Positions 25,871-31,752 of a stretch of 34,320 nucleotides of DNA are shown one piece after another. The translations under genes and the position numbers were made by a program. The stretch lies in the NCBI GenBank assembly GCA_003979035.1, contig RXOA01000108.1, positions 1 to 34,320 of the forward strand, read 5' to 3'. The notes under the pieces were generated by a model. That model was given only the letters and a program-made list of their open reading frames with translations. It did not search any database and was not told the DNA's origin. Numbering within the stretch: the first letter of the stretch is position 1; every line of letters begins with the position of its first letter. This DNA is from Candidatus Bipolaricaulota bacterium (GTDB taxonomy: Bacteria > Bipolaricaulota > Bipolaricaulia > UBA7950 > UBA9294).

Positions 25871-25897
25871 TTAGCACTTAAGATTACTGTCTGCTAA
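25871..25897. promoter_or_regulatory. CIRCE-like HrcA operator (degenerate inner arms)
   Basis: TTAGCACTT-N9-GTCTGCTAA versus canonical TTAGCACTC-N9-GAGTGCTAA, at the predicted hrcA start site. Confidence 0.8.
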
Positions 25898-25925
25898 TGA
25901 TAGGCGGCGTTGGGTTTTTTGTCAA
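25897..25925 (-). promoter_or_regulatory. Predicted sigma-70 type promoter of hrcA operon
   Basis: Minus strand TTGACA-17 nt-TATCAT. Confidence 0.8.
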
Positions 25926-25933
25926 TGCCGGTC

Positions 25934-25962
25934 TTGACAGACTGCTCACATCGGCCTATAGT
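25934..25962 (+). promoter_or_regulatory. Predicted sigma-70 type promoter of the leader/ABC transporter operon
   Basis: TTGACA-17 nt-TATAGT, back-to-back with the hrcA promoter. Confidence 0.85.
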
Positions 25963-25971
25963 GGCTCCAAG

Positions 25972-26076
25972 ATGAATCAAGCAAGGAGCACCGAACGAGT
26001 CCAATTGCGGCACGTGACCGGCTCCTGCTTCTATTTCTGCTATTGGTTTAGCCCCGGCTTCTGCGAAACGCGCTAG
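25972..26076 (+). CDS. Putative aromatic/Cys-rich leader peptide MNQARSTERVQLRHVTGSCFYFCYWFSPGFCETR
   Basis: ATG 9 nt after a TATAGT -10 element; CFYFCYWFSPGFC run; TAG stop in hairpin; terminator follows. Confidence 0.6.
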   Translation: MNQARSTERVQLRHVTGSCFYFCYWFSPGFCETR

Positions 26077-26104
26077 CGATTCACAAGCGCGTTCCGGAGA
26101 AGCC
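26056..26104 (+). promoter_or_regulatory. Nested hairpin in leader containing the leader stop codon (candidate 1:2 stem)
   Basis: GGCTTCT/AGAAGCC outer 7 bp and AACGCGCT/AGCGCGTT inner 8 bp, both perfect. Confidence 0.65.
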
Positions 26105-26111
26105 AGTTGCC

Positions 26112-26145
26112 GACTGCAGGCATTTGCCTGCGGTCTTTTCTTTTT
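26112..26145 (+). terminator. Intrinsic terminator/attenuator upstream of the ABC transporter
   Basis: GACTGCAGGC-attt-GCCTGCGGTC stem (one G-U) followed by TTTTCTTTTT. Confidence 0.9.
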
Positions 26146-26334
26146 GGCGTACGGGTAGAGATGAGAAAGATGTGGAAACCAAGGAGGTGAGTCGATTCCA
26201 TAGGAAAAGAGCGCAAGGATGGAAGACGCCGCCCGCGCAACGGACCGGCAAAGATCGCTGCCGCGGGCGGTGCTGTGGAGCAGCCCTGTGACCAGGGCTG
26301 CAGGAAGGATAGCTTACAAGATGAAGGAGTTGTT

Positions 26335-27333
26335 GTGAAGCGAAATGCGCTGTTGATCATGATAGGGCTGTTGGTTTGCGTTGCGCTTGTCGGAGTCTCG
26401 GCTCCGCTGAAGGTTGGTATCTGCAAGATCGTGGAACATCCGGCGCTCGATGCGGTGGAACAAGGGGCGATCGATGCGTTGACAGCCGCCGGATACGAAG
26501 ACGGAGTTGACGTGGAGTACCTCCTTGCCAGCGCTCAAGGTGACTACACTGTGGCGATCTCGATTGCCCAGAACTTCCGGGCGCAGGGTGTGGATTTTGT
26601 CGTTGCCATTGCGACGGCGACAGCCCAAGCCGCAGCAGAAGTGTTCCGGGGTACGGATGTCCCGGTGATCTACGCCGCCATTACTGATCCGGTCGGAGCT
26701 CTGCTTGTCCCCGATGCCACCGATCCCAGCGGCAATGAGAACATCACCGGTGTGTCGGACATGATCAATGTCGCCGATGACATCCGACTTCTTCAGGAAC
26801 TGTCCGATGAGATCGATTCGATCGGCATCGTGTACAACCCCGGCGAGGCGAACTCCGTGGTGCTGACGGACATGGCGCGCGAGGCAGCGGAAGCCCTTGG
26901 CCTGTCGCTGATTGCGGCGAGCGCGGATACGTCGGCGAATGTTCCGATTGCCGCGCAGTCGCTGATCGGGCGGGTTGATGCCCTGTACGTGACAACGGAC
27001 AACACGGTCGTCTCTGCGATTGATTCCGTGCTCGCCGTCTCACGAGAGGCAAAGATTCCGTTCCTTGTCGCCGATCCAACGAGCCTCGCCAGTGCGACGC
27101 TTGCCGTCGGATTCGACTACTACGATTTGGGCTTGACGGCCGGAGATTTGGTGTTGCGGATTCTCGACGGCGCGCGCCCGAACGAGATCCCGGTGACGTT
27201 TGTTTCGGGGGCCGGAATCCACTTGAACGTCGATGAAGCGATCCTGATCGAATTTGAGTTTCCGGCGTCGGTCGTTGAGCGAGCGTCTTCGGTGCTGTAC
27301 GGCGGCGTGAGTTTCACCAAGAACGAGGAATAG
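26335..27333 (+). CDS. ABC transporter substrate-binding protein, TrpX/ABC_sub_bind (PF04392-like)
   Basis: GTG after AAGGAG; KRNALLIMIGLLVCVALVGVSAPLKVGICKIVEHPALDAVEQGAIDAL...; VIYAAITDPVGALL, ITGVSD, SIGIVYNPGEANS. Confidence 0.9.
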   Translation: MKRNALLIMIGLLVCVALVGVSAPLKVGICKIVEHPALDAVEQGAIDALTAAGYEDGVDVEYLLASAQGDYTVAISIAQNFRAQGVDFVVAIATATAQAAAEVFRGTDVPVIYAAITDPVGALLVPDATDPSGNENITGVSDMINVADDIRLLQELSDEIDSIGIVYNPGEANSVVLTDMAREAAEALGLSLIAASADTSANVPIAAQSLIGRVDALYVTTDNTVVSAIDSVLAVSREAKIPFLVADPTSLASATLAVGFDYYDLGLTAGDLVLRILDGARPNEIPVTFVSGAGIHLNVDEAILIEFEFPASVVERASSVLYGGVSFTKNEE

Positions 27334-27348
27334 GACGGGAGATCGGCG

Positions 27349-28248
27349 ATGGAGACGCTTCTCATACACGCACTCGAACAAGGGCTGGCCTACGGGATTG
27401 CCGCGCTTGGCATTTTCCTGACCTATCGCATTCTCGACTTCCCTGATCTCACCGTTGATGGGAGCTTCGTGACCGGAGCGGCCATCGCCTCTCTTCTCTT
27501 GTCCAGATACGGATTTGACCCGTTCTCCGTGCTTGTCATCGCGTTCGTCGCCGGAGCGGCGGCAGGAACGGTGACCGGATTGCTGCACACGAAGATGAAG
27601 ATCACCCGCCTCTTGTCGGGCGTGCTGATGATGATCATGCTGTATTCGATCAACCTGCGGATCATGGGGCGGCCAAACCTGTCCCTGCTTCGCATTGACA
27701 CGGTGACGCGACTTGTCGACGCAGCCTGGTCCGGGCTTGGACCGGTGGCGATTCTGGTGTTCATCACGATTCTGGCGATGGGCGTTAAGTTCGCCTTGGA
27801 CCTATTCCTGCGCACGGAACTTGGGTTTGCGCTTCGTGCTACTGGGGACAGTGAGACGATGATCATCGCCCAGGGAGTCAACACCAACACCATGAAGGTT
27901 CTTGGTGTCGCTGTCGCCAACGGATTGGTTGCCCTCTCCGGCGCATTGGTGGCGCAGTACAACGGATTCGCGGATGTTGGAATGGGAACCGGGACGATCG
28001 TGACCGGTCTTGCAGCCGTCATCATCGGAGGTACGCTGATCCGATCTTCGCGGATCGGATGGATGACTGCTGGGGTCCTGGTCGGATCGGTCATCTACCG
28101 ACTGGCGGTCGTGCTGGCACTGCGCTACGGCTATGTCATCGGATTCCAGGCGAGCGACATGAAGCTGGTGACGTCTCTTCTGGTGATTTTGGCGTTGGTG
28201 GCACCAACGCTCCGCGAACGCCGACAAAGGAAGGTGCGGGCATGCTGA
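27349..28248 (+). CDS. ABC transporter permease (TrpY-like)
   Basis: METLLIHALEQGLAYGIAALGIFLTYRILDFPDLTVDGSFVTGAAI...; multi-TM, adjacent to the binding protein. Confidence 0.9.
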   Translation: METLLIHALEQGLAYGIAALGIFLTYRILDFPDLTVDGSFVTGAAIASLLLSRYGFDPFSVLVIAFVAGAAAGTVTGLLHTKMKITRLLSGVLMMIMLYSINLRIMGRPNLSLLRIDTVTRLVDAAWSGLGPVAILVFITILAMGVKFALDLFLRTELGFALRATGDSETMIIAQGVNTNTMKVLGVAVANGLVALSGALVAQYNGFADVGMGTGTIVTGLAAVIIGGTLIRSSRIGWMTAGVLVGSVIYRLAVVLALRYGYVIGFQASDMKLVTSLLVILALVAPTLRERRQRKVRAC

Positions 28249-29030
28249 GCCTGAGAGGTGTCTCCAAGGTTTTCCAGATAGGCGCTGATCGCAAGGTTGC
28301 GATCCGGCAAATCGATCTTGATCTTCGCTCCGGTGAGTTCTTGACGATCATCGGCTCCAATGGTGCAGGCAAGAGCACGCTCCTGAATCTCATTGCAGGA
28401 ACAGTTCCCCCCACGACGGGCACGATCCGGCTGGCAGACATGGACATCACCGGTGTGCCGCCTCACATCCGAGCGCGGCGGATCGGTCGCATCGTTCAAG
28501 ATCCGCTGGCCGGAACGGCTCCGTCGATGACGGTTGCGGAGAACCTTGCTCTGGCCTCGAAGCGAGGGCGTCGGACGCTGCGACTCGGTCTTCCATCCCG
28601 GATGCACCGCCGCATCCGCGCGCAACTAGAGGTGCTGAACATCGGCATGGAAGATCGTCTTGACTGCAGTGTGTCGACTCTTTCCGGTGGAGAGCGGCAA
28701 GCGCTGACGATTCTGATGGCAACCCTTGCCCAGCCGGAGATCCTGTTGCTTGATGAACACACGGCGGCGCTCGATCCAAGCAACGCCGCGATGATCGTGC
28801 GGATGACCTGCGCATTCGTTGAACGGCTTGGGCTGACGACGTTGATGGTGACCCACAATATGGAACAGGCGATCGAACTCGGCGATCGTCTGGTGATGAT
28901 GCACAAAGGCGAGATCATTCATGATATCGCCGGAGAGGCAAAGGCCACCACAAGCGTTGGCGAGCTGGTCGACATGTTCTCTCGGCATCACATTGTTGAC
29001 GATGAACTGCTGCTCGAACGCGTGTGCTGA
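28242..29030 (+). CDS. ABC transporter ATP-binding protein (TrpZ-like)
   Basis: IIGSNGAGKSTLLNLIAG, LSGGERQALTILMATLAQPEILLLDEHTAALDP; ATG overlaps permease stop. Confidence 0.93.
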   Translation: MLSLRGVSKVFQIGADRKVAIRQIDLDLRSGEFLTIIGSNGAGKSTLLNLIAGTVPPTTGTIRLADMDITGVPPHIRARRIGRIVQDPLAGTAPSMTVAENLALASKRGRRTLRLGLPSRMHRRIRAQLEVLNIGMEDRLDCSVSTLSGGERQALTILMATLAQPEILLLDEHTAALDPSNAAMIVRMTCAFVERLGLTTLMVTHNMEQAIELGDRLVMMHKGEIIHDIAGEAKATTSVGELVDMFSRHHIVDDELLLERVC

Positions 29031-29032
29031 CC

Positions 29033-29177
29033 GTGGGGAAGCTTGAGGACCCCGACGCCAGGAGAAGCCCGGGGAGGTGTGTGGACACGCTAGGGAGGGC
29101 GTGAGGAACTACCCCCAACGGTGTCATAAAGGCAGCAAGGACTCTACCGCTGTGGCCGACCTAGCTGTCTTTCCCAC
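29033..29177. ncRNA. Candidate structured RNA or terminator region between convergent genes (unassigned)
   Basis: Closing stem GTGGGGAA...TTTCCCAC, internal stems CCCCG/CGGGG and CACGC/GCGTG; non-coding except overlap with the secA 3' end. Confidence 0.25.
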
Positions 29178-31752
29178 AGCAGTTCTTGTATTTCTTCCCC
29201 GATCCGCACGGGCACGGGTCGTTTCGTCCGACCTTCGTCGGGAGCGTGACGGGCTTCGACTTGCCCCGCGGGGGATGGCTGGCGCTCTGACGCGCGTCTC
29301 CCAAGGCGGATGCACTGTTGTGAACCAGCTGTACCTTGCGCTGGGCATCGTGCGGCGCTCCCGATTTGGCCGGAGCAAGGCGAGCACTGAGAACGAGGCG
29401 CACGATCTTTGCGCTGGCCCGGGCAAGCATCTCTTGAAACAGCGTGAACGATTCGCGTTTGAATACCACAAGAGGATCGGTTCCGCCGTATGCGGTCCAC
29501 CCGATCCCTTCACGAAGATCGTCCAAGGTGTAGAGATGTGCCAACCACTGCTCATCAATCGTTCCCAGCATCAGATAGCGTGCGATCAAGGGGAATTGTG
29601 GTCCCAGCCGTTCCTTCTGCCGGCCAAGCGCCGTTCGCAGTTGATCGAGAAGGAATGATGACAGTTGTTCGGCAGAGATCTGCGCGAGTTCGATCGACGC
29701 CTGTCCGGTCAACGCCGCGACTTCTCGCCCCAGCCCCTCCAGATTCCAGTCTTCTTCGGGAATCGATGGGTCGGCGTATCGGGAAACCAGATTGGCTACG
29801 TATTCGATGAACAACTCGTCGAATCGATCATCGAGATCATCGAGAGAGATCTTCTCCGCCGAGTCTTGCGGCGGAAGCAGGAGTCGATCACGCAACGAGT
29901 AGATGGCGTCGCGCTGTTTCGACATCACCATATCGTAGTCGATCAATCGCTTGCGGATTTCGAAGTTGCGGCCTTCCACGCGCTTCTGTGCCCGCCGGAT
30001 CGCGCCGGTCAGCATCTCGTGCTCGATGGCTTCCCCTTCTTCCATCCCCAGGCGATCGAGCAATCCTCCGATCCGCTCGCCCCCGAAGATGCGAAGAAGA
30101 TCGTCGGTCAGCGACAGGTAGAATTGCGACGAACCGGGGTCGCCCTGCCTTCCGGCACGACCGAGCAGCTGATTGTCGATGCGGCGGGATTCGTGGCGTT
30201 GACAACCGATGACGTGAAGTCCGCCGATCTTGGAGACGTTCTCTCCAAGTTTGATATCCGTGCCGCGTCCCGCCATGTTTGTGGCGACGGTGATTGCCCC
30301 GGGCTGCCCCGCATCCTGAACGATCTCCGCCTCTTTCTCGTGGTGTTTGGCGTTCAACACGGTGTGGGCGAGCTTGCGCGCTTTGAGCAGGCGAGAGAGC
30401 TGTTCCGACTTCTCGATCGAGTTGGTGCCGATGAGGACGGGGCGGCCCTGTTCGTGAAGGCTCTTCGTTTCATCCGCGATGGCTTCGAATTTCGCCTTCT
30501 CCGTGCGGAAGATTCTGTCGGGAAGAGCCTCACGGATCAGCGGGCGGTTGGTCGGGATCTCAAGCACCGGGAGGCCGTAGATCTGCTTGAATTCCTCTTC
30601 CTCCGTCTTGGCGGTCCCCGTCATGCCGCACAGGCTTCCGTAGAGACCGAAGTAGTGCTGCAGCGTAATCTGAGCCAGGGTCTGCGATTCCCGCTGGACT
30701 GTGAGCCCTTCCTTGGCTTCCAAGGCCTGATGCAGACCGTCCGAGAAACGGCGATCGGGCATCAGCCGTCCGGTGAACTCATCCACGATCATGACGCGGC
30801 TGTCTTTGACGATGTAGTGGCTTTCCTTCTTGAACAGATGAAGGGCTCGAAGCGCGTTCAAGAGGTAGTTCTGGTTCTCCCTGGCTTCCTCGGTTTCGTC
30901 GTAGAGGTTCTCGACGGAAAGAAGGCGCTCTGCCTTGTGGACTCCCTCGTCGGTCAGTGACAACCGGCGTGCCTCTTCATCAATGTCGAAGTCAATGTCT
31001 CGACGGAACGATCGGGCGATTCCAGCGAACTTCCGGTACTTGTCGATGGTCTGAGATGTGGCGCCGGAGATGATCAGCGGGGTTCTTGCCTCATCGATGA
31101 GGATGTTGTCGATTTCGTCGACGATGGCGAAATCCAGTGGGCCCTGCACCTTTCGATTGGCATACAGCACCATGTTGTCACGGAGGTAGTCGAATCCAAA
31201 TTGGTTGTTGGTCCCGTAGATGATGTCGCAGGCGTACGCCGCCTTCCGCTCCTCGACCTCCATCCCATCTTGCAGGAGCCCCACCGAGAGTCCGACGGCT
31301 TCGTAGGCAGGCCCCATCCACTCCCGATCGCGCCGGGCCAGATAGTCGTTGACCGTAACCACATGGACTTTGCCGACAAGGGCATTCAGAGCCGCAGGCA
31401 TCGTTGCGACAAGGGTCTTCCCTTCCCCGGTCTGCATTTCGGCGATCCTCCGGTCATCCATGACGAGCGCCCCGAGAATCTGCACGTCGAACGGACGCAT
31501 CTCGAGTACTCGCGTGGCAACTTCGCGGATGACCGAAAATACGAGGGGGCGGATCTCCTTGCGTGAGGCGCCGTCGGCGAGACGCTTGCGGCTCCGATCG
31601 ATCTCCTCACGCAACGCAGCGTCGGAGAGCGCGGAGACTTCGTCGGCCCGCTCATTGATCTGTTGAATCTCTTTATCGTAGCGAGCAAGCTGCTGGGCGT
31701 CGGTTTGCCCGAGAAGGTAGTTGACAGCGTGGCGAAAGCGTTGATTACCCAT
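29161..31752 (-). CDS. secA: Preprotein translocase subunit SecA with C-terminal SEC-C zinc motif
   Basis: MQTGEGKTLVATMPAALNAL, VNDYLARRDREWMGP, FVDEIDNILIDEARTPLIISG-type DEAD region, GRQGDPGSSQFYLSLTDDLLRIF, PCPCGSGKKYKNCCG. GTG at 31761 is an alternative start. Confidence 0.97.
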   Translation of the reverse strand: MGNQRFRHAVNYLLGQTDAQQLARYDKEIQQINERADEVSALSDAALREEIDRSRKRLADGASRKEIRPLVFSVIREVATRVLEMRPFDVQILGALVMDDRRIAEMQTGEGKTLVATMPAALNALVGKVHVVTVNDYLARRDREWMGPAYEAVGLSVGLLQDGMEVEERKAAYACDIIYGTNNQFGFDYLRDNMVLYANRKVQGPLDFAIVDEIDNILIDEARTPLIISGATSQTIDKYRKFAGIARSFRRDIDFDIDEEARRLSLTDEGVHKAERLLSVENLYDETEEARENQNYLLNALRALHLFKKESHYIVKDSRVMIVDEFTGRLMPDRRFSDGLHQALEAKEGLTVQRESQTLAQITLQHYFGLYGSLCGMTGTAKTEEEEFKQIYGLPVLEIPTNRPLIREALPDRIFRTEKAKFEAIADETKSLHEQGRPVLIGTNSIEKSEQLSRLLKARKLAHTVLNAKHHEKEAEIVQDAGQPGAITVATNMAGRGTDIKLGENVSKIGGLHVIGCQRHESRRIDNQLLGRAGRQGDPGSSQFYLSLTDDLLRIFGGERIGGLLDRLGMEEGEAIEHEMLTGAIRRAQKRVEGRNFEIRKRLIDYDMVMSKQRDAIYSLRDRLLLPPQDSAEKISLDDLDDRFDELFIEYVANLVSRYADPSIPEEDWNLEGLGREVAALTGQASIELAQISAEQLSSFLLDQLRTALGRQKERLGPQFPLIARYLMLGTIDEQWLAHLYTLDDLREGIGWTAYGGTDPLVVFKRESFTLFQEMLARASAKIVRLVLSARLAPAKSGAPHDAQRKVQLVHNSASALGDARQSASHPPRGKSKPVTLPTKVGRNDPCPCGSGKKYKNCCGKDS

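Follow-up and report, generated by a model that had tools for sequence, protein, structure and literature searches.

Leader peptides with amino acid-matched control codons and their probable role in transcription termination upstream of an aromatic ABC importer operon in Bipolaricaulota

Introduction

Transcription attenuation driven by translation of a short leader peptide is textbook knowledge that stems from a few phyla. The Escherichia coli trpL, pheL, thrL and hisL leaders share a short ORF with cognate codons, a hairpin near the stop codon and an intrinsic terminator before the gene. The trpL leader of Sinorhizobium, which controls biosynthesis and carries a run of Trp codons only, uses the classical alternative pairing. 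Its mRNA has no 5′ UTR (PMC7298713).

Transporters of the TrpX type are associated with a different mode of tRNA-charging control: the trpXYZ operon of Streptococcus suis has an upstream T-box (PMC9382623), i.e. an element that binds tRNA directly, without translation, and acts on a terminator. A third system, pil1 of Streptococcus gallolyticus, relies on the repeat length of its leader and not on amino acid codons; there, a ribosome on the leader peptide directly destabilises the upstream terminator (PMC3894217).

Here we analyse a leader in the window, the whole 34,320-nucleotide stretch of the Candidatus Bipolaricaulota bacterium contig RXOA01000108.1, where it precedes an ABC importer operon. 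Its parts are those of the E. coli leaders and, like trpL of Sinorhizobium, which belongs to another phylum, it probably lacks a 5′ UTR. Unlike in E. coli, the Bipolaricaulota leaders probably start leaderless, without a Shine-Dalgarno sequence, no antiterminator is detectable, the conserved spacing runs from the control codons, and not from the stop codon, to the first hairpin (P1), and the cargo includes importers preceded by mixed-amino-acid runs. An open-access literature search retrieved no paper in which Bipolaricaulota and transcription attenuation are mentioned together.

Results and Discussion

The promoter, 34-codon ORF, nested hairpin and intrinsic terminator that the preliminary description of this DNA had read from the letters are all present at the positions collected in Table 1. 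The −10 box and the leader ATG are 9 nt apart, which leaves no room for a Shine-Dalgarno sequence. This arrangement recurs in family f1, to which the window belongs, and in most f4 relatives (about 9 nt in f1, 6–11 nt in the majority of f4). A promoter of the window type is not clearly visible in two leaders of f6 and in a few of f4. Judging by the −10 spacing and the absent Shine-Dalgarno sequence, the leader mRNA is probably leaderless or nearly so. Neither the whole window nor the leader region matched any Rfam leader, T-box or riboswitch family at the curated gathering score, which sets this locus apart from the T-box-controlled trpXYZ operons. The expectation that such operons carry T-boxes elsewhere holds: in addition to S. 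suis (PMC9382623), T-boxes lie upstream of TrpX relatives at 2 of 20 scanned loci outside the phylum, in Caldatribacterium and in an Atribacteria MAG.

Table 1. Leader, terminator and transporter features in the window (position 1 is its first letter)
Feature	Positions	Strand	Remarks
Promoter TTGACA-17-TATAGT	25934..25962	+	TTGACA 25934-25939, 17 nt spacer, TATAGT 25957-25962
Leader ORF MNQARSTERVQLRHVTGSCFYFCYWFSPGFCETR, 34 codons	25972..26076	+	ATG 25972, stop TAG 26074-26076; aromatic leader in 45/45 orthologues
P0 hairpin, approximate arms	25979..26030	+	Codons 3-6 pair with the codons directly before the aromatic run; f1 family only
Control codons TTC TAT TTC TGC TAT TGG TTT	26029..26049	+	Trp, Tyr and Phe in 45/45 leaders
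P1 hairpin (nested)	26056..26104	+	Overlaps the leader stop codon; folding z, position, arm swap
Intrinsic terminator GACTGCAGGC-ATTT-GCCTGCGGTC-TTTTCTTTTT	26112..26145	+	Hairpin 26112-26135, then TTTTCTTTTT
Shine-Dalgarno-like AAGGAGGTGA	26181..26190	+	3′ of the terminator, ~145 nt before the transporter start; recurs in relatives
TrpX-like substrate-binding protein (PF04392)	26335..27333	+	GTG start; profile match
ABC permease (PF02653)	27349..28248	+	Profile match
ABC ATPase (PF00005)	28242..29030	+	Profile match

Short ORFs are common and the leader was first noticed in a single sequence, as would be expected if an ORF had come by chance to lie ahead of an ordinary upstream terminator. To this explanation we attach practically no probability, since it is refuted by conservation of the leader among orthologues drawn from whole genomes that belong to the window's family and class within the phylum Bipolaricaulota. 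We counted an ORF as leader-like if a stretch of 6 residues held at least 4 aromatic ones, Trp among them, and if it lay no more than 450 nt upstream of the transporter gene. Such an ORF precedes the TrpX-like gene in 45/45 orthologues, as against 0/45 on the reverse strand; these are draft and related genomes, so the counts are not independent, and contamination of MAGs is possible. The matching of codons to cargo described below likewise speaks against chance. An aromatic leader precedes the importer in every examined Bipolaricaulota genome that has the importer. Outside the phylum, the candidate leaders of TrpX relatives were not convincing (leader-like ORFs at 8/62 loci versus 2/62 on the reverse strand).

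The preliminary description had left it open whether the leader senses aromatic amino acids or Cys. Each of the 45 leaders has codons for all three of Trp, Tyr and Phe, which upholds the aromatic part, and Cys codons occur in only 17 of the 45, on which ground we reject Cys sensing. The runs end variously, with CYWFSPGF in the window and FFWYWTRA, FYWYWFEHGF, SRWYWFSVGI, YVWYWFA* and YSYYYWFLRF* in relatives (asterisks mark stop codons). In f1 the control codons are the rarer synonyms, judged against the window genes: the f1 core has 17 TAT to 4 TAC and 18 TTT to 1 TTC, versus 127 TAC to 35 TAT and 199 TTC to 58 TTT in the genes.

Ahead of the aromatic run, the f4 and f6 leaders (e.g. L018, L111-L131, L023 and L024) have a Shine-Dalgarno-like AAGGRGGTGATC in frame. 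In many f4 members the last Trp codon follows it at exactly 38 nt, and no start codon lies at a usable distance. Since its Val codon is always GTG while the neighbouring residues vary, it seems to be the nucleotides of AAGGRGGTGATC that are kept.

The architecture extends beyond the TrpX-like importer. A pattern search for Tyr, Trp and Phe codons followed by a terminator retrieved leaders in genomes without TrpX, upstream of a LivK-type binding protein (PF13458). We then searched 33 family genomes with the f1 terminator sequence and obtained 30 matches in 15 of them, and none with the reversed control pattern; two of the 30 are the two strands of one hairpin, giving 29 distinct sites. At all 29, a leader ORF ends shortly before the terminator, and at 27 a promoter is placed as in the window. 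Cargo was assigned by running Pfam on representatives of each type and, for the other homoserine dehydrogenase and LivK members, by visible similarity. TrpX-like cargo (4/29) is preceded by W/Y/F runs, and LivK-type cargo (12/29) by mixed F/L/V/I/M/Y runs such as FLVYFIIMLL, HLVYWITLF and FFVQFGMMM. Homoserine dehydrogenase (6/29; L218, L220, L221, L223, L224 and L232) follows Thr runs (GTTTY, YTTTTC, TTTTTR and similar), a PLP enzyme of Cys/Met metabolism (3/29, one of them in the window's own genome) follows MMM, and chorismate mutase (2/29; L210 and L226) follows FYWYYYF and FFFYF. The remaining two sites (L216 and L217) carry TTT/TTTT runs before a protein of about 160 amino acids without a Pfam match (MKAVKWN.../MKAIRWN...), which is presumably linked to threonine. 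This agreement between control codons and cargo is the strongest evidence that the ribosome very likely senses tRNA charging on these leaders.

The site from the window's genome lies at about 529-760 on the minus strand of G000:C78 (locus L002) and has the leader MNSAGPSASRDHQEAARVSLAPGAFMMMHRAALSR*, followed by a hairpin and a similar terminator before the gene of the Cys/Met-metabolism PLP enzyme. In four genomes of genera g32 and g36 (L175 +, L176 +, L177 − and L178 +), an apparent LivG-type ATPase gene lies divergent from the LivK gene and has a leader of its own (GLHWFM, EFFWF, LRLF), with an internal Shine-Dalgarno-like sequence, a hairpin and a terminator.

The cargo matching also bears on two rival readings. 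A compact leaderless ORF ahead of a strong terminator resembles the leaderless trpL of Sinorhizobium (PMC7298713), and the terminated RNA or the leader peptide could itself be the product, as with rnTrpL/peTrpL, operon readthrough being constant and low. We regard such action in trans as very improbable: the leader peptides lack conservation beyond the control run, and their control codons go with the kind of gene that comes next, which speaks for an element acting in cis. Equally remote is a TnaC-like arrest, in which a free aromatic amino acid would bind the ribosome and the nascent peptide would stall it. The short aromatic motif near the stop codon of f4 leaders (e.g. VWYWFA*) is what such an arrest would call for; however, the same architecture occurs with Thr, Met or mixed hydrophobic runs, conservation ceases past the run, and the stop codon follows the run at anything from 9 to 30 nt.

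What is constant is the position of P1 relative to the control codons. Counted from the first nucleotide of the last Trp codon, P1 starts 8–13 nt downstream in 42 of the 45 TrpX leaders, and the three exceptions have more aromatic codons past the last Trp, with P1 starting 9 nt after the last Phe. For the other cargos, with control runs picked by eye, P1 starts 3–11 nt after the last control codon in 34/36 leaders. The stop codon, 9 to 30 nt after the last Trp codon, falls before, inside or at the tip of P1. In the bacterial ribosome, the mRNA channel takes up 11 nt past the first P-site nucleotide, and stem-loops 11–12 nt from that nucleotide hinder A-site tRNA binding (PMC7282821). Given this channel length and the fixed spacing, the conserved relation appears to be that between P1 and a ribosome on the control codons; the variable distance of the stop codon argues against a ribosome at the stop codon in this role. 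On its other side, P1 ends 0–5 nt from the terminator by folding (7 nt in the window if the strict 26056-26104 stem is taken).

P1 and the terminator are predicted in all leaders, with folding z below −1.5 in 17/17 f1 and 26/26 f4 members. Because MAFFT alignment puts the 3′ arm of P1 out of register, we examined the pairing by swapping arms between leaders. Own arms reach −31.4 kcal/mol versus −17.6 kcal/mol for swapped arms in f1, and −24.1 versus −19.9 kcal/mol in f4. The sequence of P1 diverges while its pairing is kept by compensating arms; in f1 the 5′ arm is also part of the reading frame, and coding constraint could account for some of its conservation. The P0 signal, confined to f1, is weaker than that of P1 (z below −1.5 in 11/17; own arms −18.8 versus swapped arms −15.0 kcal/mol).

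With control codons, a stem at the stop codon and a terminator, the leaders carry the parts list of the classical three-stem attenuator, in which a stalled ribosome frees a segment that pairs with the 5′ arm of the terminator. The candidate antiterminator of the preliminary description (26102-26121) is not conserved among relatives. To look for any other, we asked by a duplex test whether either terminator arm pairs with an upstream segment better than shuffled sequence does. The 5′ arm found no partner in 43 TrpX leaders of f1 and f4 (mean z −0.1 to 0.9), and neither arm did in 36 leaders with other cargo (mean z 0.16 for the 5′ arm and 0.17 for the 3′ arm), so that a conserved alternative partner is undetected for both arms in about 80 leaders. 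Applied to E. coli, the same test recovered the trp (−2.65), phe (−3.11) and thr (−5.59) switches and missed his (−0.45), i.e. one of four controls. A ribosome mask had no effect in equilibrium folding, but this result counts for little, since that test also misses the E. coli trp, thr and his switch. Furthermore, the terminator arm is almost invariant (GACTRCAGG) and the P1 arms are free to vary, which argues against conserved pairing between them. Considering both the missed control and the partnerless 5′ arm, we judge a classical switch to be unlikely.

Taken at the level of its inputs and outputs, the locus is probably an attenuator in which a ribosome on the leader senses aromatic tRNA charging and controls the terminator of the aromatic ABC importer operon. 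A ribosome would load at the 5′ end of the leaderless or near-leaderless transcript and translate the leader. When Trp-, Tyr- or Phe-tRNA is short, it would stall over the aromatic codons, immediately at the base of P1, which would itself slow decoding of the last control codons; when aromatic tRNA is ample, it would pass on, end at the stop codon and depart. By the logic of supply, a held ribosome would give readthrough, and a departed or absent ribosome termination. Since no antiterminator was detected, we propose that the switch is direct. With the ribosome held, P1 would fold between it and the terminator, leaving few nucleotides from P1 to the terminator, and the retained ribosome might hinder the terminator hairpin or keep RNA polymerase in a termination-resistant coupled state. 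The pil1 leader (PMC3894217) is a precedent for direct action of the ribosome on the terminator; against a direct block counts the fact that the stalled ribosome does not overlap the terminator. The direct switch as specified here is a tentative proposal that may well prove wrong. We would be similarly cautious, and inclined to doubt, about its extension to a phylum-wide class of antiterminator-free attenuators in which P1 serves as a ruler at the front edge of the ribosome and the codon mix is tuned to the substrates of the cargo.

The cargo of the window leader fits aromatic sensing. The TrpX-like protein scores 236.9 bits against PF04392 (ABC_sub_bind; cut-off 25.9); against the TrpX equivalog NF041285 it scores 211.8 bits, under the 390-bit cut-off, and is thus related only. 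Solved members of PF04392 bind Phe (VC_1101, 3LKV), Trp (SP1069, 3LFT) or Tyr (CD0873, 6HNI) (PMC6816091). At the specificity positions given in PMC6816091, 17 aligned Bipolaricaulota proteins have an invariant Asp (Asp247), which aligns with Glu-263 of CD0873, and an invariant Tyr (Tyr262), which aligns with Tyr-279 of CD0873, Tyr-262 of VC_1101 and Gln-284 of SP1069. Following the reasoning of that study, the pocket looks more like those of the Tyr- and Phe-binding relatives than like that of the Trp-binding SP1069, and the name TrpX therefore calls for caution. Among draft genomes, trpA is found in 5/43 with TrpX versus 22/57 without it, and chorismate synthase in only 31/100 of the class. 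Import is thus probably the main source of aromatic amino acids.

Bipolaricaulota thus appear, from sequence comparison, to sense amino acid shortage by means of ribosomes without an RNA switch of the E. coli type. Attenuation appears as a general form of amino acid regulation in this uncultured and deep-branching phylum, whose leaders for aromatic, branched-chain/hydrophobic, threonine and methionine genes share one plan. The control codons also offer predictions of transporter substrates: all three aromatic amino acids for the TrpX-like importer and a mixed hydrophobic set for the LivK-type importers. If the lack of an antiterminator holds true, a ribosome can control termination with less RNA machinery than is assumed in the classical model, and the plan would be simple enough for a compact synthetic sensor.

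Several further features surround the leader. Just past the terminator, many f1 genomes have a Shine-Dalgarno-like GGAGGTG, 150–200 nt before the transporter start and with no consistent start codon downstream; a mini-ORF 3′ of the terminator was rejected as a conserved element, being present only in genus g4. G+C-rich hairpins lie between the terminator and the transporter gene in the window (26215-26320) and at L011, L015 and L022, and in genus g13 this gap holds tandem copies of a GCCCGTCCGC hairpin. Beyond the operon, positions 29040-29180 may hold an RNA gene, for which Rfam gave no match. On the promoter side, a degenerate CIRCE-like repeat, TTAGCACTT-N9-GTCTGCTAA, occupies positions 25872-25898 of the window and is accompanied by a divergent promoter on the minus strand (25925-25897) that faces hrcA-grpE-dnaK-dnaJ. 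The −35 boxes of this promoter and of the leader promoter are 8 nt apart.
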